NCBI RefSeq assembly: GCF_009882945.1
Contig: NZ_WTUY01000004.1
Location: 549,341-613,340, forward strand
Source: Alcanivorax sp. DP30
GTDB taxonomy: Bacteria; Pseudomonadota; Gammaproteobacteria; Pseudomonadales; Alcanivoracaceae
DNA: 64,000 nucleotides
Direction: 5' to 3'
The notes under the pieces were generated by a model. It was given only the letters and a program-made list of their open reading frames with translations, had not been told where the DNA came from and searched no databases. The position numbers and the translations under genes are program-made. Of the stretch, positions 3,586 to 25,361 are shown piece after piece (positions within the stretch are counted from its first letter, which is position 1; each line of letters begins with the position of its first letter).

Positions 3586-6465
3586 GTGTCTTTGCAGTCT
3601 CCGAACAACCGTACCTCTGCCCCCTTCAAGGGCATATTGACTGAACAGTGCCAACTGCTGTTTAGCGGCATCCTTGTGCTATTTATTCTCGAAACCGCCA
3701 GTGCGGTAGTGCTGGCATCCTTTTACTGGAACAGCCCGGTACCCCAGTCCCTGATGGTTGGATGGCTGGCATTGTTCAGCCTGGTTCAAGTGATCAGGGT
3801 TCCGCTGCTACTGATGGCCCGCCAGAAACTGATCCGGGATGAAATCAACGCCAGCTGCCGAACGGCACTGTCTGCGCTGGCCCTGAGCACCCCGCTACTG
3901 ATCGGCATGGCCGGTTACCTGTTCAACCCGGCGGAGCTGCTGTTCCGCCCGGATATGCTCAGCATTCAGCTGCTTTGCGCAAGCATGGGGCTGGGCCTTG
4001 CCACTCTGGCCCTGGCGGCCTACAGCAGCCATTTTCCCACGGTATTTCTCTATCTCATCATGTTGCTGGGGCCCATTATGGTCCGGCTTTCGCAAACCCA
4101 GGCCGAGAGCGAACTGTCACTGCTGGTCATGATGATGGTGCTCGGGCTGTTTTTCCTGCTGGCCGCCCGCCGCATTCATAACACCGGCCACCAGGCCATG
4201 ATGCTGCAAGCCAGCAACCGTTCCCTGATTGATTACCTGAACCGGGCGCGCAGCGATGCCGAATCCCTGAACGAGAAGCTGGCCCAGGAAATCTACGAAC
4301 GAAAAGAAGCCCGTCAGCGCTTGCAGGAAACCAACGAACGGCTGGAAACCATGGTGGCCGAACGTACCAAGGCCCTGGAGGAATCCAACCAGGCCCTGGG
4401 CGCCACCGGCGAACGTCTGGAGCTGGCACTGGAAGCCAGCAACATCGGCCTGTGGGACTGGATGCTGGATACCGGCCGCAACTATCACACCAATTTTGAC
4501 CGTCTTCTGGGTTACGACAGTGCCTACTTCAAGAACTTCTTCGGCGACCTGGAAACCCTGGTTCATCCCGACGACCTGACCCGGGTACGCCGGGCCATGG
4601 TGTCCCACTTCAAGGGCGAGAGCGACCGCTACCATGCGGTCTACCGGCTGCGCCATGCTGACGGTAACTGGCGCTGGATCGAGGACGATGGCCGCGTGGT
4701 GCGCTGGTCAGAAAAGGGCCGCGCCACCCGCATGATTGGCACCCGCCGGGATATCACGGAAGACCGCCAGGCCCAGGAGCAGCAGCGGCTGGCCGCCACC
4801 GTGTTTGAAAATGCCCCGGAAGGCATCTTCATTCTTGATCACCGCTTCCGTTTCCTGGCCGTCAACGCCCGTTTCGAGCAGATCACCGGCTATTCCGAGT
4901 CCATGGTGCTGGCCAAGCAGGTGCTGGAACATGAAGAAACCCACCCCAACCGCGAAACCTACGTCGAAATCACCAACGCCCTGAAAGAAAGCGGTTTCTG
5001 GGAAGGGGAAATCAATGAAAAGCGCCGTAATGGTGAGTCGTTCCCCGAATGGCTTCAGATCAGTGCGGTACGCGATGAGCAAAAGCGGGTGATTCGTTAC
5101 GTGGGCATGATCTCGGATCTGACCACCCGCAAGGAAACCGAACAGCAACTGCAGTTCCTGTCCAACTACGATCGACTCACCGGCCTGGCCAACCGCTCCC
5201 AGTTCCGCGAGCACCTGCACAAGTCGCTCACCCTGGCGCGTCTGAACCGGGAAAAAGTGGCGTTGCTGATGATCGATCTGGACCGCTTCAAGCCCATCAA
5301 CGAATCCCTGGGCCACGAAATTGGCGACCGCCTGCTCAAGGCCGCCGCCGAACGGCTCAGCCACTTTGCCGGTGAGGAAGAACACCTGGCCCGGGTGGGT
5401 GGCGACGAGTTCACCCTGCTGGTGGAGAAGTACACCAACGAAGGCGCCATCAGCCAGCTGTGCCAGAAACTGGTCAACGCCATGAAAAAGCCGTTCCATA
5501 TCGACGGCCACGAGCTGCTGCTGGGGGCCAGTATCGGTATCAGCGTGTTCCCGGACAGCGCCAAGGAAGCGCAGAGCATGATCAACCAGTCCGACATGGC
5601 GGTGTATCAGGCCAAGCGCAGCGGCGGCAATAATTTCCAGTTCTACCGCAGTAACATGCGCGTGGCTTCGGTGGAACAGTTGGCACTGGAAACCAGCCTG
5701 CGAAAGGCCATCTTCAAGAACGAGTTTGTGGTCTATTACCAGCCCAAGATGGAGCTGGCCAACAACCGCATTACCTCGGTGGAAGCCCTGGTACGCTGGC
5801 AGCACCCCACCATGGGCCTGATCCCACCGTCCGAATTTATTCCGCTGGCCGAGGAAACCGGCCTGATCTCCGCCATTGGCGAGCTGGTGCTGGAGCGCTC
5901 CTGTCGCCACGCTCACAAGTGGTACAAGCAAGGGCTGGGAGACATCACCGTGTCCGTCAACCTGTCTGCCCACCAGTTCCGCAAGGGCAATGTGGCAGAG
6001 ATCGTCGACCGGGTACTGTCCAGCACCGAGCTGCCGCCGCAACTACTGGAACTGGAGCTCACCGAAAGCCTGATCATGGAAGACATGGAGCAGAACATCG
6101 AAATGCTTCAGCAACTGCGCAAGCGCGGTATCGAGCTGGCACTGGATGACTTCGGCACCGGTTATTCCTCGCTGAGCTATCTCAAACGCTTCCCGGTGGA
6201 CACCCTGAAGATCGACCGCTCCTTCATCATGGACCTGGACAAGAGCCCCGACGATGCCGCCATCACCCGCGCCATCATCGACATGGCCCACAGCCTGCAG
6301 ATGAACGTGGTGGCCGAGGGTGTCGAAACCGAAGAGCACCTCGCCATCCTCCGCGACATGTCCTGCGACACCATCCAGGGCTTCCTGATCAGCAAACCGG
6401 TCCCGGAAGAAGAGCTGGTCGAGTTGCTGCATACGCAGGCGTACAGAAGGGCAATTGATAGTTAA
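3586..6465 (+). CDS. Membrane PAS-PAS-GGDEF-EAL protein (cyclic-di-GMP synthase/phosphodiesterase)
   Basis: Bifunctional-type c-di-GMP signalling protein of about 959 residues. The N-terminal 200 residues hold about six hydrophobic membrane segments, followed by a coiled-coil linker rich in [19 protein letters not shown]. Two PAS/PAC units follow (about 280-400 and 405-525), then GGDEF (GGDEF at residues 605-609, intact) and EAL (E733-A-L, with [17 protein letters not shown] and LKIDRSF loops intact). Both catalytic signatures are conserved, so net direction cannot be predicted. The start is a GTG at 3586 with GAGG 11 bases upstream. The frame is open to 3283, but that part would overlap uvrD antisense. 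A TTG at 3592 is a weaker alternative. The gene ends inside the left arm of a heptad repeat element. Confidence 0.88.
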
Positions 6466-7599: not shown

Positions 7600-7687
7600 T
7601 TGTGTCAGTCCTGAGTGAAAAAGTCCTTGATGCGGGCCTTTGCCATTGTATCATTGGTTGATGTAACAGTTATGGAGGTACGCAATT

Positions 7688-8530
7688 ATGGCGGTCTCAA
7701 TTCTGCCCATTCGTCGCAATCTGAAGTTCAACCTGAACCCGGCCAAGGCGCTTACCTGGCATCAGGACGGGCTCAATGTCAGCCAGTTCCTGAACACCAT
7801 GAGCCTGTTTTTCCCGGTGGGTGAACGCTTCTTTATCGACAGCGTACGCAAATACCGTGACCAGATCACGGATCCTGAACTGCAAAAGGCAGTGACCGCC
7901 TTTATTGGACAGGAAGCCATGCACGGTCGTGAGCACGACGAATATAACAACTTCGTCGCCGACGCGGGCGTCCCGTTGCATGCCCAGGAAGCGGTGGTCG
8001 AAAAACTGCTCAAGACCGTCCAGGACTATACCCCGGATGCCTTCCAGCTGGCTGCTACGGTAGCACTGGAACACCTGACCGCCATCCTCGGCGGCGGCCT
8101 GCTGGACCTGCCCGAAATCATGGAAGGCTCCGACGAAGGCTACAAGGCTATCTGGAACTGGCACGCTCTGGAAGAAACCGAACACAAGGCGGTGGCCTTT
8201 GACGTCTACACCACCGTCATCGGCGACGACAGCAATGTGGGCGCCTATGCCCTGCGCACCACCTCACTGGTGGCGGCCACCGGCATCTTCTTCGCCCTTA
8301 TGATTCCGTTCTATGTTCACAACGTGCGCATCCGCGGCGGCCTGTTTGACCTGAAAGGCTGGCGAGCCGTGGCCAAACACACCTGGGGCAGGAAAGGCAT
8401 CTTCCGAAACATCACCAAGCCCTGGTTCGACTGGTTCAAACCCGGCTTCCACCCCTGGGACCATGACAACCGCGAACAGCTGGAGAACTTTGAAGCCCTG
8501 CTTGGCGACCTCCTCCGCGACGCGGCATAA
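7688..8530 (+). CDS. PF10118-type predicted metal-dependent hydrolase
   Basis: A 280-residue cytosolic or membrane-associated protein of the family usually annotated as metal-dependent hydrolase. Biochemistry is largely unknown, and members are common in fatty-acid- and alkane-using proteobacteria. Visible metal-ligand-like motifs on helices are QEAMHGREH (75-83), LEHL (about 127-130) and EETEHKAVAFDVY (162-174), a pattern resembling ferritin-like di-iron carboxylate proteins. One hydrophobic segment (about 192-215) may be a membrane helix. GGAGG precedes the ATG by about 9 bases. A strong terminator follows, so it is probably monocistronic. The family call is good; its reaction is not known. 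Confidence 0.82.
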   Translation: MAVSILPIRRNLKFNLNPAKALTWHQDGLNVSQFLNTMSLFFPVGERFFIDSVRKYRDQITDPELQKAVTAFIGQEAMHGREHDEYNNFVADAGVPLHAQEAVVEKLLKTVQDYTPDAFQLAATVALEHLTAILGGGLLDLPEIMEGSDEGYKAIWNWHALEETEHKAVAFDVYTTVIGDDSNVGAYALRTTSLVAATGIFFALMIPFYVHNVRIRGGLFDLKGWRAVAKHTWGRKGIFRNITKPWFDWFKPGFHPWDHDNREQLENFEALLGDLLRDAA

Positions 8531-8572
8531 GCGTTCAACATCACCTAGCTCTCCCTTTTCTATGGTGATTCT

Positions 8573-8602
8573 GGGCCGGCACTTTGTGCCGGCCCTTTTT
8601 TT
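8573..8602 (+). terminator. Rho-independent terminator of the PF10118 gene
   Basis: A perfect 10-bp stem, GGGCCGGCAC pairing with GTGCCGGCCC around a TTT loop, runs straight into seven T residues. A second small palindrome (GTTGAACGT/ACGTTCAAC, 8603-8623) follows, and an outer GTTCAACA/TGTTGAAC pair frames the whole. Confidence 0.92.
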
Positions 8603-8670
8603 GTTGAACGTTTTACGTTCAACATTGAAAAGGGGCCTGAAGACAGGCGGTTTGTGTTACGGGCCGCGTG

Positions 8671-10962
8671 TCAGCCACCATCCTGGCTGGCCACCACGCG
8701 ATCGTCCGTGAGACGGATATTCCCCGCCGGTGCCTGCCCTTCCCGGTCTTCGCCGAAGTACAACGTGGTATGCGGGAACGGAATCTCGATGCCGGCCTTG
8801 TCAAAGTAGATTTTCACCAGCCGGTTGAAGGCGCGGCCCACTGCCCACTGATTACCCGGGGTGGTCTTGATCACCACCCGGATATTCACCGAGCTGTCGG
8901 CCAGAGCCGTTACCCCGGCCACGGTCATGGGCGCCAGGATGTTGTCCCTGTGATCGCCTTCCTTGAGGGCCTCGAAGGCCGCTTCCAGCTGAACGATGGC
9001 ATCGTCGATGTTCTCCCGGTAGGCGATACCGTATTCACCCACGTGGTTGCCGTAATCACGGGTGAAGTTGGACACCGCGTCAACGGAAGAGAAAGGCACA
9101 ATATGGTAGGTGCCATACAGGTCCCGCAACGCCACCGAACGAATCCCGACCCGTTCCACGGTGCCGGAGTTGCCGCCGACGGACACGAAGTCCCCGGTAT
9201 TCATGGCATTCTCCACCTGGATGAAGACCCCGGTAATCACATCCTGGACCAGCTTCTGGGCCCCAAAACCAATGGCCAGACCCAATACACCTGCCCCGGC
9301 AATCAACGGCCCGATATCCACGCCCACCTCGGACAGCACGATCATCACCGTCATGATGATGATGGCAATGGCGAGCGTGGTATGGAACAGCCCCAGCAGG
9401 GTTTCCCCCCGTGCCGCCTGGGCCGCCGTGCTGTTTTCGTCCGGACTGAACTTGTGCTCCACCAGGCTGGCCAGCCCCACCCACACCGCAGCAGACACGG
9501 CCAGAATAATGAGAATATCCAGCAAGGCAGAAACCGTCTGGCTACCGGCCGGCGTGGCGTACCAGGAAGACAAGTCATAGAGCCTCCAGGCATCCAGCGA
9601 GACCACTGCCACCAGCACCAATATCAGGGTACGGATCACTTTCAGGGCCGTGGGGACGTAAGTATTCAACCGTGCCTGTAACCGCGGCATGCTGGCATTC
9701 AGTCGCTCGGGCAGCTGGATTTGCTGGCCAATAAGCTGGCCCAGAGCCACCGACACCAGCAGACCCGTCCCCACGTAAATCAGCGTTTCCAGGGTAGCCA
9801 CTGCCACATAAGGTAAAGCGGTTTCCGGGTTCAAGACGGTGACCGCAAACACCACCACCGCATAGCCCAGGGCCAGCCAGTGCCAGGTGCGCGACAACAG
9901 AAGCAGCAGCAGCCGGATGGGTCCGTAAGCCTGGTTGGCTCGGGTTTCAAGAGCCGTTCGCAAGCTGGCTCGACTGCGCATTATCACCCCCGCTGCATAG
10001 AGCAACGCCACAATCATGATTAGCGTACCGGCACCACTGCCAAGGGCTGGCGACATGTTGTAGTTCAGCACGGGAACCAGCACCAACATACCGTAGCCGA
10101 TCAGGCCCGCCTCCCGGGCCAGGAAACGGTTACAGTAACGGGCCTGCTGGGCCGACACCGGCAAGAGTCTCAAGCCTTCGAACCGTGAGGAAAAGAACAT
10201 CCGCATGGCCGCCTTTGCCAGCTCGACGATCAGGAAAGCATTAAGGAAAAGCGCAAGGCGTGTGGCATCCGCGCCCAGTTGCTCAGTGAGCAGGGGGGCC
10301 AGAAAAGTACCCGCCAAATAGGCGACCACCACCACGGCCACATCGAGCAAGGCGGCGGCTGCCACTGCCACAGCGGTTCGCAGGATAGCCAGCTTCCGAG
10401 ATCCGGCCAGCGCCCAGCGACTGAGCCCCCCGAATGCAGACCCGACAAGCGCCCGCAGGCTCCAGAAGACCGCAAAGGTCACAACAATCAGGATGGCGAT
10501 GTTAATCAGGGCTGCCGTGACAGCCTTGATATCGAAGGGAGTGGTTGTCATGGCTTGGTCTGGCGCTCCACCGTCTTCGCCAAACCATCCGGAGACCAGG
10601 CCAGCCACGGCCGCGAATTGCCGGCCCAGATCCCCCGCAAGGTTACCCGTGGCCGACGCCATACGACGCGCCAGAGAAACCTGTTGCGCAGTCTGACCGC
10701 TGGGCGCCCCCTCGGCGATTTCCGCCGCAGGGACCTCACCGGCAACACCCAGCGGCTCCGGCCCTGCAGCCCCCTCAAGTCCACGCAATTGATCGATAAG
10801 AATCTGACGGCGGGCATCATCTTCAAGCGAGTCCGCAAGATCACCGTATTGGGCTGCAGAGGGTGAGGTCGGTTCTGCATAAACCGAACCGGTCCACAGG
10901 ACGGACAATATCAATGGAAACAGCACAATCAGTGTGCGGAGAAAAACGGGCAAAACGCGCAC
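8671..10962 (-). CDS. Large MscS-family mechanosensitive ion channel
   Basis: Inner-membrane channel of about 763 residues that would open on membrane tension to release solutes during hypo-osmotic shock. The start chosen is GTG at 10962 because AGGAG (10969-10973) sits six bases before it. It gives a clean signal peptide (VLPVFLRTLIVLFPLILS, cleavage after VYA). The frame is open to an ATG at 11013. A periplasmic helical region is followed by about ten hydrophobic segments. Near residues 540-660 lies the MscS core: GAGVLGLAIGFGAQKLVQD (pore helix TM3), then a beta domain with NTGDFVSVGG and VERVGIRS. Length and layout resemble the multi-TM MscM/YbiO-like channels rather than the short MscS. 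It is convergent with the PF10118 gene. Confidence 0.87.
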   Translation of the reverse strand: MRVLPVFLRTLIVLFPLILSVLWTGSVYAEPTSPSAAQYGDLADSLEDDARRQILIDQLRGLEGAAGPEPLGVAGEVPAAEIAEGAPSGQTAQQVSLARRMASATGNLAGDLGRQFAAVAGLVSGWFGEDGGAPDQAMTTTPFDIKAVTAALINIAILIVVTFAVFWSLRALVGSAFGGLSRWALAGSRKLAILRTAVAVAAAALLDVAVVVVAYLAGTFLAPLLTEQLGADATRLALFLNAFLIVELAKAAMRMFFSSRFEGLRLLPVSAQQARYCNRFLAREAGLIGYGMLVLVPVLNYNMSPALGSGAGTLIMIVALLYAAGVIMRSRASLRTALETRANQAYGPIRLLLLLLSRTWHWLALGYAVVVFAVTVLNPETALPYVAVATLETLIYVGTGLLVSVALGQLIGQQIQLPERLNASMPRLQARLNTYVPTALKVIRTLILVLVAVVSLDAWRLYDLSSWYATPAGSQTVSALLDILIILAVSAAVWVGLASLVEHKFSPDENSTAAQAARGETLLGLFHTTLAIAIIIMTVMIVLSEVGVDIGPLIAGAGVLGLAIGFGAQKLVQDVITGVFIQVENAMNTGDFVSVGGNSGTVERVGIRSVALRDLYGTYHIVPFSSVDAVSNFTRDYGNHVGEYGIAYRENIDDAIVQLEAAFEALKEGDHRDNILAPMTVAGVTALADSSVNIRVVIKTTPGNQWAVGRAFNRLVKIYFDKAGIEIPFPHTTLYFGEDREGQAPAGNIRLTDDRVVASQDGG

Positions 10963-11140
10963 AAACAACTCCTTACCCCAGTTGGCGCCCGGGAAATGAT
11001 TTATGAAAGTCATTCAGGTGCCACCGTAACAATCCCCCAACGTCCCGTTGTGAAAATCACGCGAAACCTCTGTGGCCGCTTTGTAAACGTCACTTGGCCG
11101 AAAAGGAGGCCAGGCATGTTTTCAGGGGCAGTGTCGGATA

Positions 11141-11168
11141 TTGACTGTTACATTGCTCAATGTAATTA
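11141..11168 (+). promoter_or_regulatory. Promoter with perfect operator palindrome before the M24-like gene
   Basis: TTGACT (11141-11146) and TAATTA (11163-11168), separated by 16 bases, make a sigma-70-type promoter. The spacer and the first part of the -10 are covered by TTACATTGCTCAATGTAA (11148-11165). This is a perfect 8-bp dyad with a 2-bp centre, placed where a repressor such as a TetR-family dimer would block RNA polymerase. The regulator is not identifiable from this window. Confidence 0.65.
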
Positions 11169-11201
11169 TCAGGCTCATTCCAAAAACAACCCGGAGGCGT
11201 C

Positions 11202-11879
11202 ATGACCGCATTCTGGACCCCGGACCAGCAGGCGCTGGCTCCGTACCTGGAGGCCAAAGGCCTCGCCGAGAAATGCCTGCAGATCATCGCCGCAGCCCTG
11301 CAGCCGGGCATGACGGAGGCGGATTGCCAGCTTTTGATTCGCGACTGGCTGCGCGCCCACCGTGTGTTTGATCCGGCCCGTCCGCCCCGGGTGCGTTTCT
11401 CCGGTCGGCCCAGCCGTCGTCGCTTTGGCCTGAACAGACCCGGGAAGCACCGTTTTCGCCCCGGCATGAGCTATATACTCCAGTGCGATGCGGTACTGAA
11501 CGGCTATGCCGCCAAGGCGTCCCTGTGTGGCCCCGAGGATCACTCGCAGCTGGCAGCCCTGGTGCAGCAGCTGGACGCCTGGCGTCAGGCACTGCCCGCC
11601 GCGCTGGCCCGCGGCGAGACGCCCCAGCAAATGGCAGAGCAGTATCCGGCCATTCGCCAGCACTACCGCCTTGCCCCGCTTACCGGCAACCTGCCCGAGG
11701 GCAATCGCATTGGCGAAGGGCCACTGATTCCCGGTCTGTGGCAATGGCAGTTCAGCCTCAGCGAAGCAGGTCATGGCGTGGCCGGCTGTGAATTTCTGGT
11801 TGTGGACGATCTGGGCCCCCGCTGGCTCAGCGACGGCGCCGAGGCGCTGGTCGTTGATACCCCAACCCTCACCCAATAA
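11202..11879 (+). CDS. M24-like (aminopeptidase P fold) protein, probably non-catalytic
   Basis: A 225-residue cytosolic protein. The opening (LAEKCLQIIAAALQPGMTEADCQLLIRDWL) resembles the start of the pita-bread domain of methionine aminopeptidase/prolidase proteins. The DAVLNGYAAK segment corresponds to the first metal-binding strand (family pattern D-x10-D before the GY motif). The second aspartate is replaced by lysine, and later His/Glu ligands are not recognisable. It is therefore probably a structural or binding relative, not a peptidase. GGAGG lies four bases before the ATG. It is 21 bases upstream of the hydrolase-SDR fusion, so the two are likely co-transcribed from the promoter at 11141. 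The family assignment is tentative. Confidence 0.6.
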   Translation: MTAFWTPDQQALAPYLEAKGLAEKCLQIIAAALQPGMTEADCQLLIRDWLRAHRVFDPARPPRVRFSGRPSRRRFGLNRPGKHRFRPGMSYILQCDAVLNGYAAKASLCGPEDHSQLAALVQQLDAWRQALPAALARGETPQQMAEQYPAIRQHYRLAPLTGNLPEGNRIGEGPLIPGLWQWQFSLSEAGHGVAGCEFLVVDDLGPRWLSDGAEALVVDTPTLTQ

Positions 11880-19599: not shown

Positions 19600-19694
19600 T
19601 GTAGGAGCCTGCCTGCAGGCGATCATTCGCTTGCTGGCAAGCTCCTACAGCTAACCAATACCACGCCCCTGTGGGAGCGGCCTGCACGCGAAAG
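19600..19694. repeat. REP-type palindromes (one pair and one single)
   Basis: 19600-19650 is an inverted pair: TGTAGGAGCCTGCCTGCAGG, then GCTTGCTGGCAAGCTCCTAC. A single copy, TGTGGGAGCGGCCTGCACGC, follows at 19670-19694. The GGAG/CTCC head plus GC-rich palindrome is the usual REP design of Pseudomonas-type genomes, spread by RAYT transposases; no RAYT gene is in this window. Confidence 0.75.
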
Positions 19695-19787: not shown

Positions 19788-20234
19788 CTAGCGAGCACAT
19801 CCGCTCTGGTCGATGATCGTCCCCGGCGCACCGGTCTGAAATTTTTCACGAAGGTCGTCGGGCACCGGCGTTTTCTCAAACGGCTCGGCGGTCATCATCA
19901 CATACACCGCTTCCGATGTAGCGATTGATCGCCCCTCATCCGCATGATGAATATCCGCTTGCAGGGTGAACGAGGTATTGCCCAGTTTCTTCACTGAAAC
20001 AAATACATTCAACACATCATCGAAGCGCGCGGAAGATTGCCACTCTATGGTCAGCTTTACGGCCTGATTATCCAGCTCTCTCGCCTGAAGTTGTTTATAG
20101 TCGCATCCCAGGGCTCGCATGAATTCCTTAATGGCGATGTCAATGTAATCCGCGTAACGGGCATTGAACACCACTTGCTGGCCATCGCATTCGTTATAGC
20201 GAACCCGAAACCGGAAGCAGAACGGTTGGGGCAT
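19788..20234 (-). CDS. Acyl-CoA thioesterase, 4-hydroxybenzoyl-CoA thioesterase family (copy 1)
   Basis: A 148-residue hotdog-fold enzyme that would hydrolyse acyl-CoA thioesters in the cytosol. FRFRVRYNECDGQQVVFNARY carries the family's active-site Asp (ECD) and the start of the long hotdog helix; SSARFDDVLNVFVSV and SEAVYVMMT are later core strands. The ATG at 20234 aligns with the paralogue's start and has GGAG six bases upstream. A TTG four codons earlier is less likely. It is about 65% identical by eye to the neighbour at 20522-20965, so it is one half of a tandem duplication. The substrate is unknown; short- or medium-chain acyl-CoA is plausible. Confidence 0.85.
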   Translation of the reverse strand: MPQPFCFRFRVRYNECDGQQVVFNARYADYIDIAIKEFMRALGCDYKQLQARELDNQAVKLTIEWQSSARFDDVLNVFVSVKKLGNTSFTLQADIHHADEGRSIATSEAVYVMMTAEPFEKTPVPDDLREKFQTGAPGTIIDQSGCAR

Positions 20235-20349
20235 AACATTCTCCAAAACATTTGTACGAAGCCACCTGAAAAATGCGCAAATCGAATAACGATGCTCGCA
20301 AGGGAAGAGGCAGGTTGTCGCGGGTGGCGGACCATCGGGAACCGGGAAC

Positions 20350-20515
20350 CGTCATGGTTATCACCGTCCCTCTTCAATAAAGGGCAACCACTGCCCGCGA
20401 TTTCAGACGCCGCATAGTAGCCCATTTTGGTATTCAGATGTAGCGAACGCAGATCGATATTGAAGTCCTCAAGACACGCGCAGCGATGCAGGACGGAACA
20501 GCAAGAGGTCCGGGT
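20350..20515 (-). pseudogene. Relic of phospholipase D C-terminus between the two thioesterases
   Basis: Reading leftward, one frame gives FNIDLRSLHLNTKMGYYAAS, closely matching FNMDPRSLHLNTEMGYYVVS of the intact phospholipase D at 21109-22497. After a frame slip the next frame reads QWLPFIEEGR and stops, matching the intact QVAEFIEEG. A short LH..CxLED piece upstream matches the second HKD motif with about eight residues lost. It begins straight after the end of thioesterase copy 2. Thus the duplicated unit was the phospholipase tail plus thioesterase, and the phospholipase part has since decayed. Confidence 0.8.
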
Positions 20516-20521
20516 CTTACG

Positions 20522-20965
20522 TTACCGGCGCCCACTCTGATCAATCACCTCTGCCGGCGCACCGGTCTGCAACTTTTGCCGCAACCAGTCTGGCACCGGG
20601 GTTTTCGCAAAGGGTTCCGTGGTCATCATCACGTACACCGCTTCAGACTTTGCAATTGCTCTGTTTTCATCTGCATGTCGAATATCGGCCTGCAGCGTGA
20701 AGGAGGTGTTTCCGATATGAATGGCTGAGACAAACACGTCCAGCACATCATCAAACCGCGCTGACGATTGCCATTCCGTGGTCAGCTTGACCACCTGATT
20801 ATCCAGCCCCTGCGCAAGAATGCTGTTGTAGTCACAGCCCAGCGCACGAAAAAATTCCGTCATGGCGATATCCACGTAATCGCCATAGCGTGCATTGAAC
20901 ACCACTTGCTGGGCATCACATTCGTTATAGCGAACCCGAAATCGAAAACAGAATGCTGCTGTCAT
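20522..20965 (-). CDS. Acyl-CoA thioesterase, 4-hydroxybenzoyl-CoA thioesterase family (copy 2)
   Basis: A 147-residue hotdog thioesterase, paralogue of the gene at 19788-20234. It has the same FRFRVRYNECDAQQVVFNARY active-site block (catalytic Asp in ECD), SSARFDDVLDVFVSA and SEAVYVMMTTEPFAKTPVP. The ATG at 20965 is preceded by AAGGA nine bases upstream. It lies about 140 bases downstream of the intact phospholipase D, the same position that copy 1 holds relative to the phospholipase relic. Both copies keep full length and catalytic residues, so both may be active. Differences cluster around residues 35-50 and 78-84, which could alter acyl specificity (inference). Confidence 0.86.
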   Translation of the reverse strand: MTAAFCFRFRVRYNECDAQQVVFNARYGDYVDIAMTEFFRALGCDYNSILAQGLDNQVVKLTTEWQSSARFDDVLDVFVSAIHIGNTSFTLQADIRHADENRAIAKSEAVYVMMTTEPFAKTPVPDWLRQKLQTGAPAEVIDQSGRR

Positions 20966-21021
20966 TAGAAGTTTATCCTTGTCCGCAGGCGCTCATAATT
21001 CATGAGCAAAAAGAAAGTTCA

Positions 21022-21102
21022 GGATTCGAGTTGCGAAATATTTTAATGGTCAGCCGTCGGATTTTGACTTTCGAAACTCGCGTCACAAAACTCGAAACCG
21101 TT
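21022..21102. repeat. TTCGAAACTCG-type inverted heptad repeats
   Basis: ATTCGAGTTGCGAAAT (left) faces TTTCGAAACTCGCGTCACAA and a further AACTCGAAACCG (right, 14-bp spacing, twice seven). The same sequence class is found at 63401-63498. The right arm runs up to seven bases from the stop of the phospholipase D gene. Confidence 0.5.
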
Positions 21103-21108
21103 TCTTTT

Positions 21109-22497
21109 CTAAAAAAATCGAGCAATGGGAAGACGAGAAAGAAACGCGGCCAGCAAGCGACGGAGCATGCTCGCACGGGGTTCGTTCTTGAGCAGTACGG
21201 GCACTCCCTCCTCGTCCACGCCACCCCAGCGCAGCCAGTTTTTTTCCAGTTCCAGTCGATAACTGTTTACCGGTGACAATCCTTCTTCAATAAATTCCGC
21301 CACCTGTTTTCCCAGTGATTCTGATACCACGTAATACCCCATCTCCGTATTGAGATGCAGCGAGCGCGGATCCATATTGAACGAACCAATAAAGATTTCC
21401 CGCCGATCCAGCACCATGGCCTTGGTGTGCAGGCTGGCCAGTGACCGGCCGCGCAGAAGGCGAAACTGGCGCTTCATGGTGCGGGCATGGGGCTGCAGTT
21501 CATGCAGCTCCACGCCCCCTTTAATCAAAGCCTGTCGATACGGTGCATAGCCTGCATGTGCTGCAATGATATCGTTAGTCGCCAAACTGTTGGTCAGCAC
21601 TGCGGCACGGCCGCCGCGTTGTTTCAGCCGGGAAAGTGCCGCAACAAAATCATCACCGGGGATAAAATAGCTGGCTTCAAGCAGTAACTCACGATGGTCC
21701 TCCCGATCAAGGAGCTGCGCCAACTGATCCCCCATCATCGACAGTTTTTCGCCTGCGGCTTTTTCCGGACTATCGAACAACAATACTGCAGGGGCCTGTT
21801 CACACAAGGCCTCCTGCTTCGCCAGATAATTCAGAAAAAAATTTTCATCCTGAGGAAATATATACGGATAGTTTTTTAATGTTCGCCGCCATTGCGATAG
21901 CCATCGCCAGGCACGCTCCGCTCGCTCGGGTCGATAGCGACGCAGGGTTTTCAGCGGCATGGCAAGATCACTGTGCCAATAGACATCAAACGCATCGCGG
22001 GTATCTGCCGCAATTGGCCCACTGGCAAACCAGTCCAGGTCCCGAAAGTTGCTGGCCGGATTCACCCCAAAATAGTGATCGGAAATATTCCTCCCACCTA
22101 CCAGACAACGCTCGCCATCAGCAATCCAGGCCTTGTTGTGCATGCGGTGATTGAGCAGCGGCGCGTGATAAAGCCATTGATGGAAATGCTTGAATCGGCC
22201 ATGGAAAGGATTGAAAAGGCGTACGTCGATATTGGGATGGGCATCCAGGGCCGCCCACTTTACGTCTCGCCCCAGCTGGTTGGCATGATCCAGCAACATG
22301 CGCACCTTCACGCCGCGTCGCGCCGCTTCCAGCACCCGATAGATCAGCAGCTTGCCGGTGGTATCGTCATCCCAGATGTAATACTGCACATCGAGAGTAC
22401 GGGTGGCGAGTCGTGCCAGGGTGACCCGAAGGGTAAACGCCTGATCGCTGTCCGCCACCAGGGACAGGGAAGAAAGCGGCGCAGTCAGGGGTTCCAC
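21109..22497 (-). CDS. Phospholipase D superfamily protein (ClsC/cardiolipin-synthase-like)
   Basis: A 462-residue phosphatidyltransferase or phosphodiesterase with two HKD half-sites: HNKAWIADGERCLVGGRNI (about 140-158) and HTKAMVLDRREIFIGSFNMD (about 363-382). DVQYYIWDDDTTG near the N-terminus and LRYRPE-type spacing resemble E. coli ClsC/YmdC, which makes cardiolipin together with a partner. There is no clear signal peptide; the enzyme probably acts at the inner membrane. The start is GTG at 22497, with GGAGG close upstream. It is followed by thioesterase copy 2, and a decayed duplicate of its C-terminus lies between the thioesterases. The exact lipid substrate is not predictable. Confidence 0.85.
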   Translation of the reverse strand: MEPLTAPLSSLSLVADSDQAFTLRVTLARLATRTLDVQYYIWDDDTTGKLLIYRVLEAARRGVKVRMLLDHANQLGRDVKWAALDAHPNIDVRLFNPFHGRFKHFHQWLYHAPLLNHRMHNKAWIADGERCLVGGRNISDHYFGVNPASNFRDLDWFASGPIAADTRDAFDVYWHSDLAMPLKTLRRYRPERAERAWRWLSQWRRTLKNYPYIFPQDENFFLNYLAKQEALCEQAPAVLLFDSPEKAAGEKLSMMGDQLAQLLDREDHRELLLEASYFIPGDDFVAALSRLKQRGGRAAVLTNSLATNDIIAAHAGYAPYRQALIKGGVELHELQPHARTMKRQFRLLRGRSLASLHTKAMVLDRREIFIGSFNMDPRSLHLNTEMGYYVVSESLGKQVAEFIEEGLSPVNSYRLELEKNWLRWGGVDEEGVPVLLKNEPRASMLRRLLAAFLSRLPIARFF

Positions 22498-22596: not shown

Positions 22597-23475
22597 TCAA
22601 TCCATGGCGACGGTGTTGTTGTCCGCAAACCCGGGCCTGATTCGCAGAAAGCTGGCAAAGCGCGGCAGACCGTTGGTGGTCAGCCCATAGTATTTGTAGG
22701 TAACCCGACTGCCCACCGGCGGTGGATTGGCGCGCTCTTCATCACTGAAACCGCTGCCCAGTTTGAAGCGGCGGCCATCCGGGGTTTTCACCACCAGCGC
22801 CCCCAGCATACCCTGATATTTTCCCTTGCCTTCCCGGTGCGCCACCACCCAGGCTTCGGCATCTTCCCAGGTCTTCACCTTGAGCAGGGCCTGACTACGG
22901 CCATCATGATACAGACTCTCGCCATGGTGCAGCATCAGCCCTTCACCGCCCCGGGCGGTCACTTTGTCAAGCTGGTGCATCAGTGCCACATGACTGGTGG
23001 CAGGCTGTTGCTCGATCATGGAAAGCGTATAGGAAGAACTGTCTTGCACCAGTTGCTTCATGGCGTCAATGCGCTCACTGAAAGGCGCCTGGCTGGCGGG
23101 CAAATCAAAGATCATGAAGCGGATCTTGCGCCATTCCGCCATGTCCGGTTCAAGCCGCCGCACCGCCGCAGACACTGCGGAAAACGTGCCTCTTCCCATC
23201 CACAGTTCGCCGTCCAGTGGCTGCGGGGGAAACCCGCGGGTGAACCAGTCCGGCGCCGCGATGCGGTAGCCGCCTCGACTGTACAGAGCGTGGCCATCCC
23301 AGCGGGCACGCACCCCGTCCAGTTTTTCACTAACCCAGTAACCCTCCAGCGACATGCCCTGACGGTAGTTGTCCGCCAGTTGAAGATCCGCCGGGCCGGC
23401 CACTGTGGTAGCTGCCAGCGAAACCATCACCAGCAACATCAGCAGGCGATAGCTGAAACGATAGAGTAAAGACAC
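22597..23475 (-). CDS. Exported ATP-dependent DNA ligase (Lig E type)
   Basis: A 292-residue minimal DNA ligase. The adenylation motif SEKLDGVRARWDG contains the lysine that is AMP-modified. DGELWMGRG, FMIFDLP, GGEGLMLH and LLKVKTW correspond to nucleotidyltransferase motifs III-V, and a C-terminal OB-fold has GFSDEERANPPPVGSRVTYKYYG. The GTG at 23475 has AGGGAGG six bases before it. It yields a hydrophobic export signal (LLYRFSYRLLMLLVMVSLAATTVAG), so the ligase would act in the periplasm. An upstream TTG frame extension lacks this quality. Lig E enzymes have been linked to sealing of DNA outside the cytoplasm or during uptake; this role is not proven. The neighbouring lipid enzyme may be coincidental. 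Confidence 0.87.
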   Translation of the reverse strand: MSLLYRFSYRLLMLLVMVSLAATTVAGPADLQLADNYRQGMSLEGYWVSEKLDGVRARWDGHALYSRGGYRIAAPDWFTRGFPPQPLDGELWMGRGTFSAVSAAVRRLEPDMAEWRKIRFMIFDLPASQAPFSERIDAMKQLVQDSSSYTLSMIEQQPATSHVALMHQLDKVTARGGEGLMLHHGESLYHDGRSQALLKVKTWEDAEAWVVAHREGKGKYQGMLGALVVKTPDGRRFKLGSGFSDEERANPPPVGSRVTYKYYGLTTNGLPRFASFLRIRPGFADNNTVAMD

Positions 23476-23577
23476 GGCGCACCTCCCTGGCGCTGTCAGC
23501 AAAGCACGGACTCTGACAGAACCAGAAGCGATCGCCTGTAGGCAGGCTGGGGCGTTTTTTGTAGGAAAATGGCCCCG

Positions 23578-24924: not shown

Positions 24925-25361
24925 GGAAGGCCCCGATCAATCAATGATCGGCCCAGTGTAGAGATTTCGTCAGCACGTCGGTAGCAGCGTCTCTCTTCCT
25001 GTAGGAGTTCCCTTCCAGGGGACGAACAGCGATAGATCGGCGCCAATCCACCGTAGGCGCTATGGATTTCGCTTGCAGGCAAGCTCCCACATCTCAATCA
25101 CAAGGCGTCCGCAAGAAAGGAAGGTTTTCTGTGGGAGCGTGCCTGCACGCGAAAGCACTGAGGCGCGCCGCTTGAGGCGCGAACCGCGGGCAAACGCGGG
25201 ATCGAGCAGGGCGATCAGGGACGGCAAAGCCCGACAGGTTTCAAAAAGATGGCTGCCGTGACTCTCTGTCGCCTCGCTGCGCTCGGTTCGTCCCCTGGAA
25301 GGGAACTCCTACAGCGACTTCGGCCTGGGTGTTCGCAGCTCGAAGCGCGTTGCTCGCCTTT
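24925..25361. repeat. Intergenic spacer: nested 29-bp inverted repeat with inner REP pair
   Basis: Outer arms 24999-25027 and 25286-25314 are perfect 29-bp reverse complements (CTGTAGGAGTTCCCTTCCAG at the left start). Inside lies a REP pair: TTCGCTTGCAGGCAAGCTCC (25068-25091) against TGTGGGAGCGTGCCTGCACG (25130-25155). The stretch leading into the right inner REP (CCGCAAGAAAGGAAGG) is shared with the REP at 28790. No gene is supportable in this 437-base gap. It must hold the promoter of the leftward NhaC gene near 24930-25000. Confidence 0.75.

Follow-up and report, generated by a model that had tools for sequence, protein, structure and literature searches.

A probable tandem duplication in Alcanivorax that retained a YbgC/FadM-type thioesterase and left a decaying phospholipase D tail

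The locus lies on the minus strand of the window (the whole 64,000-nucleotide stretch of Alcanivorax sp. DP30 DNA analysed here). Read leftward, it consists of an intact phospholipase D (PLD) family gene, a thioesterase gene (TE2), a PLD relic, and a second thioesterase gene (TE1). The features are listed in Table 1. This gene order and the intact frames of both thioesterases had been described in an earlier note on this DNA and are present as claimed. The TE1 open reading frame as listed starts at TTG 20246. The start is most likely ATG 20234 rather than this TTG, because a GGAG sequence lies six bases upstream of the ATG. The sequence TTGGAGA(A/G)TGTTATG is found at the TE1 start in all four genomes with both thioesterases, that of the window included (such genomes are referred to here as carriers).

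Table 1. Features of the duplicated locus in the window.
Feature	Position	Strand	Description
PLD-family gene, intact	21109..22497	-	462 aa, GTG start, two HxKxxxxD motifs; relic source
Thioesterase TE2	20522..20965	-	147 aa, YbgC/FadM type; groups with the single-copy genes of relatives
TE2 stop/relic joint	20465..20521	-	
PLD relic	20367..20464	-	FNIDLRSLHLNTKMGYY block at 20414-20464; FIEEG at 20367-20381 in another frame, followed by stops
Thioesterase TE1	19788..20234	-	148 aa from ATG 20234; derived duplicate

The nearest named relatives of the window, as found by search, are Alcanivorax records. Positions 22597-23502 hold a small ATP-dependent DNA ligase (PRK09125, 383.6 bits, cut-off 200), and the distance between the ligase and the PLD gene differs between relatives. 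Intergenic palindromes of the type TGTAGGAGC...GCTCCTACA were seen by eye at 19600-19650 and 25000-25150 of the window, and a related palindrome is located ahead of both TE2 and TE1 at the related locus L037. An Rfam scan of the window gave 0 matches.

Both thioesterases are sorted into the YbgC/FadM group by Pfam and NCBIfam. TE1 and TE2 score 77.9 and 74.4 bits, respectively, against TIGR00051 (cut-off 68.7 bits). They differ from the tol-pal YbgC: scores of 57.4 and 57.6 bits are far under the 141.35-bit cut-off of its equivalog model TIGR02799, and none of the four neighbour genes scanned is a tol-pal gene. The predicted structure of TE1 has a hot-dog-type fold with a mean pLDDT of 87.2, and its best Foldseek matches are a P. 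aeruginosa thioesterase (5v10, E 7e-11) and E. coli YbgC (1s5u, E 3e-10). Residues 16-18 of the model are below pLDDT 50, so the model was not relied on close to the active site. Both proteins keep the NECD(A/G)QQVV motif with the presumed catalytic Asp17, which is invariant in 15 aligned rows and aligns with the YbgC Asp; the Asp before the long helix is the residue that we take to be catalytic in YbgC/FadM thioesterases. The pair resembles the acyl-CoA thioesterases of this group (YbgC 1s5u/5t06, P. aeruginosa 5v10) in the fold of the TE1 model, in TIGR00051 score, and in the Asp motif. By this likeness, hydrolysis of acyl-CoA esters through the mechanism of the YbgC/FadM group is the most likely activity of TE1 and TE2.

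The PLD gene matches PF13091 (E 1e-28 over two stretches) and also PF00614. Two HKD motifs can be read in its translation, a feature it has in common with cardiolipin synthase and the PLD superfamily. It scores 88 bits against the cardiolipin synthase model TIGR04265 (cut-off 290) and is under the curated cut-off of all five NCBIfam models matched. Judged by these matches, the gene is a cardiolipin-synthase-like member of the PLD superfamily to which no exact enzyme can be assigned. Elsewhere in the same genome, G000:C22:962172-963536 holds another PLD paralogue (39% identical).

TE1 and TE2 are identical at 309 of 401 bases (blastn, E 1e-85), and their proteins share 77% identity over 143 residues (76% in a second alignment). 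The earlier figure of about 65% identity was too low, with 77% found in both DNA and protein. A 63-base stretch of the relic, which encodes FNIDLRSLHLNTKMGYY, aligns with the intact PLD gene at 76% identity (E 2e-8). The FIEEG part of the relic matches the PLD gene at 14 of 15 bases in a different frame; its E value alone is 0.20, so this match is credible only through its position. When the PLD protein was searched against all six frames of the whole genome, four places matched, and the relic is one of them (E 9.6e-5). When the 275 bases between the thioesterases were shuffled 1000 times with dinucleotides preserved, no shuffle reached the real score (protein, 90 against a shuffle maximum of 50; DNA, 51 against 31). 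The frame change and the stops that follow disable this passenger copy. In the window itself, the duplicated homology is limited to the relic block and TE1. The earlier note had held that the duplication would fail if no match existed outside the short block; the window taken alone is nearly borderline in this respect, with hardly anything beyond FIEEG matching outside the block, and it is the 424-base match at L037, described below, that settles the homology.

The thioesterase was searched for in 46 genomes of the family (17 of the genus and 29 others) with a match threshold of E up to 1e-20, and at least one match was found in 42. Two copies are present in four of the 17 genus genomes, namely that of the window and those of L036, L037 (A. 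jadensis T9), and L038. None of the 29 other genomes has two copies (25 with one match, 4 with none). Gene neighbourhoods were compared at 25 of 64 loci and the window, covering all 17 genus genomes. The order PLD-TE2-spacer-TE1 is the same in the four carriers, and the TE1 frame is intact in each. The duplication is not specific to the window genome and is common to four sampled genomes. The closest relatives of the window lack TE1. A search of approximately 6 kb downstream of the thioesterase in the 13 single-copy genus genomes turned up no remnant of TE1 or PLD; short blastn matches there in L035 and L057 (28-46 bases) also occur elsewhere and resemble dispersed repeats.

L055 contains a transposase-like gene, presumably IS110-like, between the PLD gene and the thioesterase (4439-5455). 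L037 contains two genes (7627-9723 and 9968-11332) between TE1 and the quinone oxidoreductase gene, where the window has approximately 210 bases; we take them to be phosphate acetyltransferase-like and acetate kinase-like genes.

The four relics are each trimmed to a different length. The relic of L037 corresponds to PLD residues 356-462 at 46% identity and continues through the PLD stop and spacer to approximately 40 bases before TE1. Its alignment with the PLD end and spacer extends over 424 bases for L057 (78.5% identity) and over 433 bases for L035 (76%). Because this relic spans the PLD tail and the spacer contiguously, a contiguous segment was copied, made up of PLD tail, spacer, and thioesterase. 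It is disabled by a stop before the end and by indels. The relic of L036 corresponds to PLD residues 346-406, and that of the window to about 373-406. No relic is found in L038 by tblastn; the 51 bases that directly follow its TE2 are 88% identical to the end of the L041 PLD gene. The front half of a second PLD gene was found in none of the four carriers (tblastn, E up to 1e-4). Either the copied stretch started close to the second HKD motif, or its front was lost at an early stage.

Two further observations on the joints were made by eye. In L038 (6425-6470), the 3' end of TE2 goes directly into the PLD-derived sequence GGTCGATAAAGAGCAGG. The 3' end of TE1 in L036, GGTCGATAAGAGCAG, resembles this PLD-derived stretch, a likeness that suggests deletion at microhomology.

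The earlier note had proposed measuring selection on the two genes across relatives. By the Nei-Gojobori method, dN/dS is 0.051-0.113 for TE1 in six ortholog pairs and 0.018-0.119 for TE2 in the same six pairs, and both copies are under purifying selection. Eight alignment columns hold one residue in all four TE1 proteins that never occurs in 17 TE2 proteins. At five of these (TE2 positions 18, 35, 36, 50, and 58), three outgroup rows hold the TE2 residue, which indicates that TE1 changed there. At position 76 the outgroups have D or E, like TE2, and at positions 81 and 132 one outgroup has the TE1 residue. Position 18 directly follows the presumed catalytic Asp17, and positions 35 and 36 are in the long helix of the TE1 model. 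The eight fixed changes may alter the substrate choice of TE1.

Relative-rate tests of TE1 against TE2 were run with three outgroups. The two copies of the window have equal rates, with 10, 10, and 12 changes in TE1 and 11, 11, and 10 in TE2 (p 0.67-0.83). The other three carriers have 12-17 changes in TE1 and 4-10 in TE2, with p values of 0.039-0.32 that are borderline in L036 only. When the TE2 of the window is set against that of L036, the counts are 9-11 and 1-2 (p 0.004-0.035), so the window TE2 itself has moved.

The single promoter-like site in a promoter scan, against 2.3 expected, is on the plus strand, and the minus strand has none. Five terminator-like sites were found, with 3.3 expected, and one of these is on the minus strand inside the relic (20396-20382). 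TE1 and TE2 probably share a transcript that runs through the dead PLD tail. The weak terminator-like site in the relic, if real, argues mildly against such read-through. The dead tail is expected to have no function of its own.

The age and number of events were addressed with trees. All four TE1 sequences fall into a single clade, both in a tree of 30 thioesterase proteins from 26 loci (support 100/99) and in a tree built from the DNA of 21 genes (99/99), and each carrier's TE2 clusters with its relatives' single-copy genes. This topology places the duplication before the window species, and it probably happened once. A recent duplication in the lineage of the window, from its own TE2 and PLD genes, would account for the tandem position, and the window relic, as the sole relic in the tree, does fall beside the PLD genes of the window clade, weakly (76/71) and on 118 columns, which are too few to place it firmly. 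The single TE1 clade makes such an origin very unlikely, as does the constraint of the window TE1 with window-clade TE2 genes, which lowers the log-likelihood by 18.8 and is mildly rejected (p-AU 0.044). The relics point the same way. Constraining three of them with the PLD gene of the window gives p-AU 1e-5, constraining them with window-clade PLD genes gives 0.066, and the window relic is nearer to the PLD gene of L036 (85% over 61 bases) than to its own (76% over 63 bases). Another reading, which takes the relic for a chance or convergent match and TE1 for a distant paralogue that came to lie beside TE2, draws on the shortness of the window relic; it is practically untenable, being refuted by the shuffles and by the contiguous homology to PLD end and spacer that L037 retains.

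A gyrB and rpoB tree of 16 genomes rejects the four carriers as a clade (p-AU 9e-85) and places the window with L033, L034, L055, L056, L039, and L045, all single-copy. This tree is without L041, where only a gyrB paralogue below the cut-off and no rpoB were found, and it has no rpoB from L038 and an incomplete rpoB from L036 and L040. Because the carriers are not a clade, losses of TE1 or transfer within the genus must be invoked. One form of transfer has the duplication arise in the lineage of A. jadensis and its kin, with the relic and TE1 then passing to the window lineage by homologous recombination; this is a real possibility that falls short of being probable. It is consistent with the scattered carriers and with the PLD tree, in which the relic of L037 falls with PLD genes of the jadensis group (93/94) and a position beside those of the window clade is rejected (p-AU 0.003). 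Placements of the same relic outside the Alcanivorax PLD genes (p-AU 0.205) or outside the jadensis group (0.142) are nevertheless not rejected, and the window relic by itself is placed nowhere firmly. Constraining TE1 with jadensis-group TE2 gives p-AU 0.34-0.46, which neither favours nor rejects that grouping. The window TE2 ends in GGGCGCC(G/C)GTAAC, and these last codons are like those of L036 and L037 and unlike those of the single-copy L033, L034, and L055 or of the carrier L038, a short resemblance only. The synonymous differences divide in the same manner. Within L036-L038, pS between TE1 and TE2 is low (0.39-0.46), as transfer would allow, whereas between the window and L036-L038 it is as large for TE1 as for TE2 (0.53-0.55 for each), as vertical descent predicts. 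Under a simple old duplication with equal rates, the within-genome values should exceed the TE1 values between genomes; that they are lower requires rate differences, the lower GC3 of the window, gene conversion, or transfer. The synonymous distances are large, and GC3 of the thioesterase genes is 0.59-0.60 in the window and 0.66-0.71 in the other carriers. Whatever its route, TE1 might also be functionally redundant and on its way to loss, retained by drift, which would fit the lack of a second thioesterase in 13 of the 17 genomes of the genus. The intact frame in all four carriers and the low dN/dS (0.05-0.11) at pS of up to 0.55 make retention by drift unlikely.

With good confidence, the locus can be read as the product of a tandem segmental duplication of an ordinary kind, in which a YbgC/FadM-type thioesterase was copied and retained, together with a decaying passenger pseudogene. 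The copied segment would run from within the PLD gene, close to its second HKD motif, to the 3' end of the neighbouring thioesterase gene. Tandem copying in an ancestor within Alcanivorax would have produced PLD-TE2-(PLD tail)-TE1, after which the PLD tail would have decayed with different trimming in each carrier while both thioesterases stayed constrained. The second thioesterase may have been kept for a differing substrate range or expression. TE1 would be transcribed with or behind TE2, and the dead PLD tail would now serve just as spacer and leader. The patchy presence may reflect repeated loss of TE1 or one homologous-recombination transfer between Alcanivorax lineages. The central claim of the earlier note, that a segment was duplicated, its PLD tail decayed, and both thioesterases were kept, is supported by this comparison with relatives. 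A bolder version, in which TE1 is neofunctionalised and was carried, dead PLD tail included, from one Alcanivorax lineage to another, its eight fixed changes giving a different acyl-CoA substrate for alkane or wax-ester use, is doubtful.

Tandem duplication with a truncated passenger pseudogene is a general evolutionary kind of event. The present case has the same unit, a whole gene with the tail of its neighbour, and the same fate, with the gene kept and the tail decaying. It does not differ in kind; here the decay stages stand side by side in four genomes. No paper joining Alcanivorax, thioesterase, and tandem duplication was found among literature listings and the openings of abstracts.

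This is ordinary biology, and no known principle is changed by it. It is an unusually clear, though ordinary, case of gene duplication, and a small, clean model of the aftermath when a duplication copies a whole gene and a piece of its neighbour, with the scrap at different stages of decay in four genomes and both thioesterases constrained. TE1 and TE2 provide a testable paralogue pair in Alcanivorax, a genus known for oil degradation.
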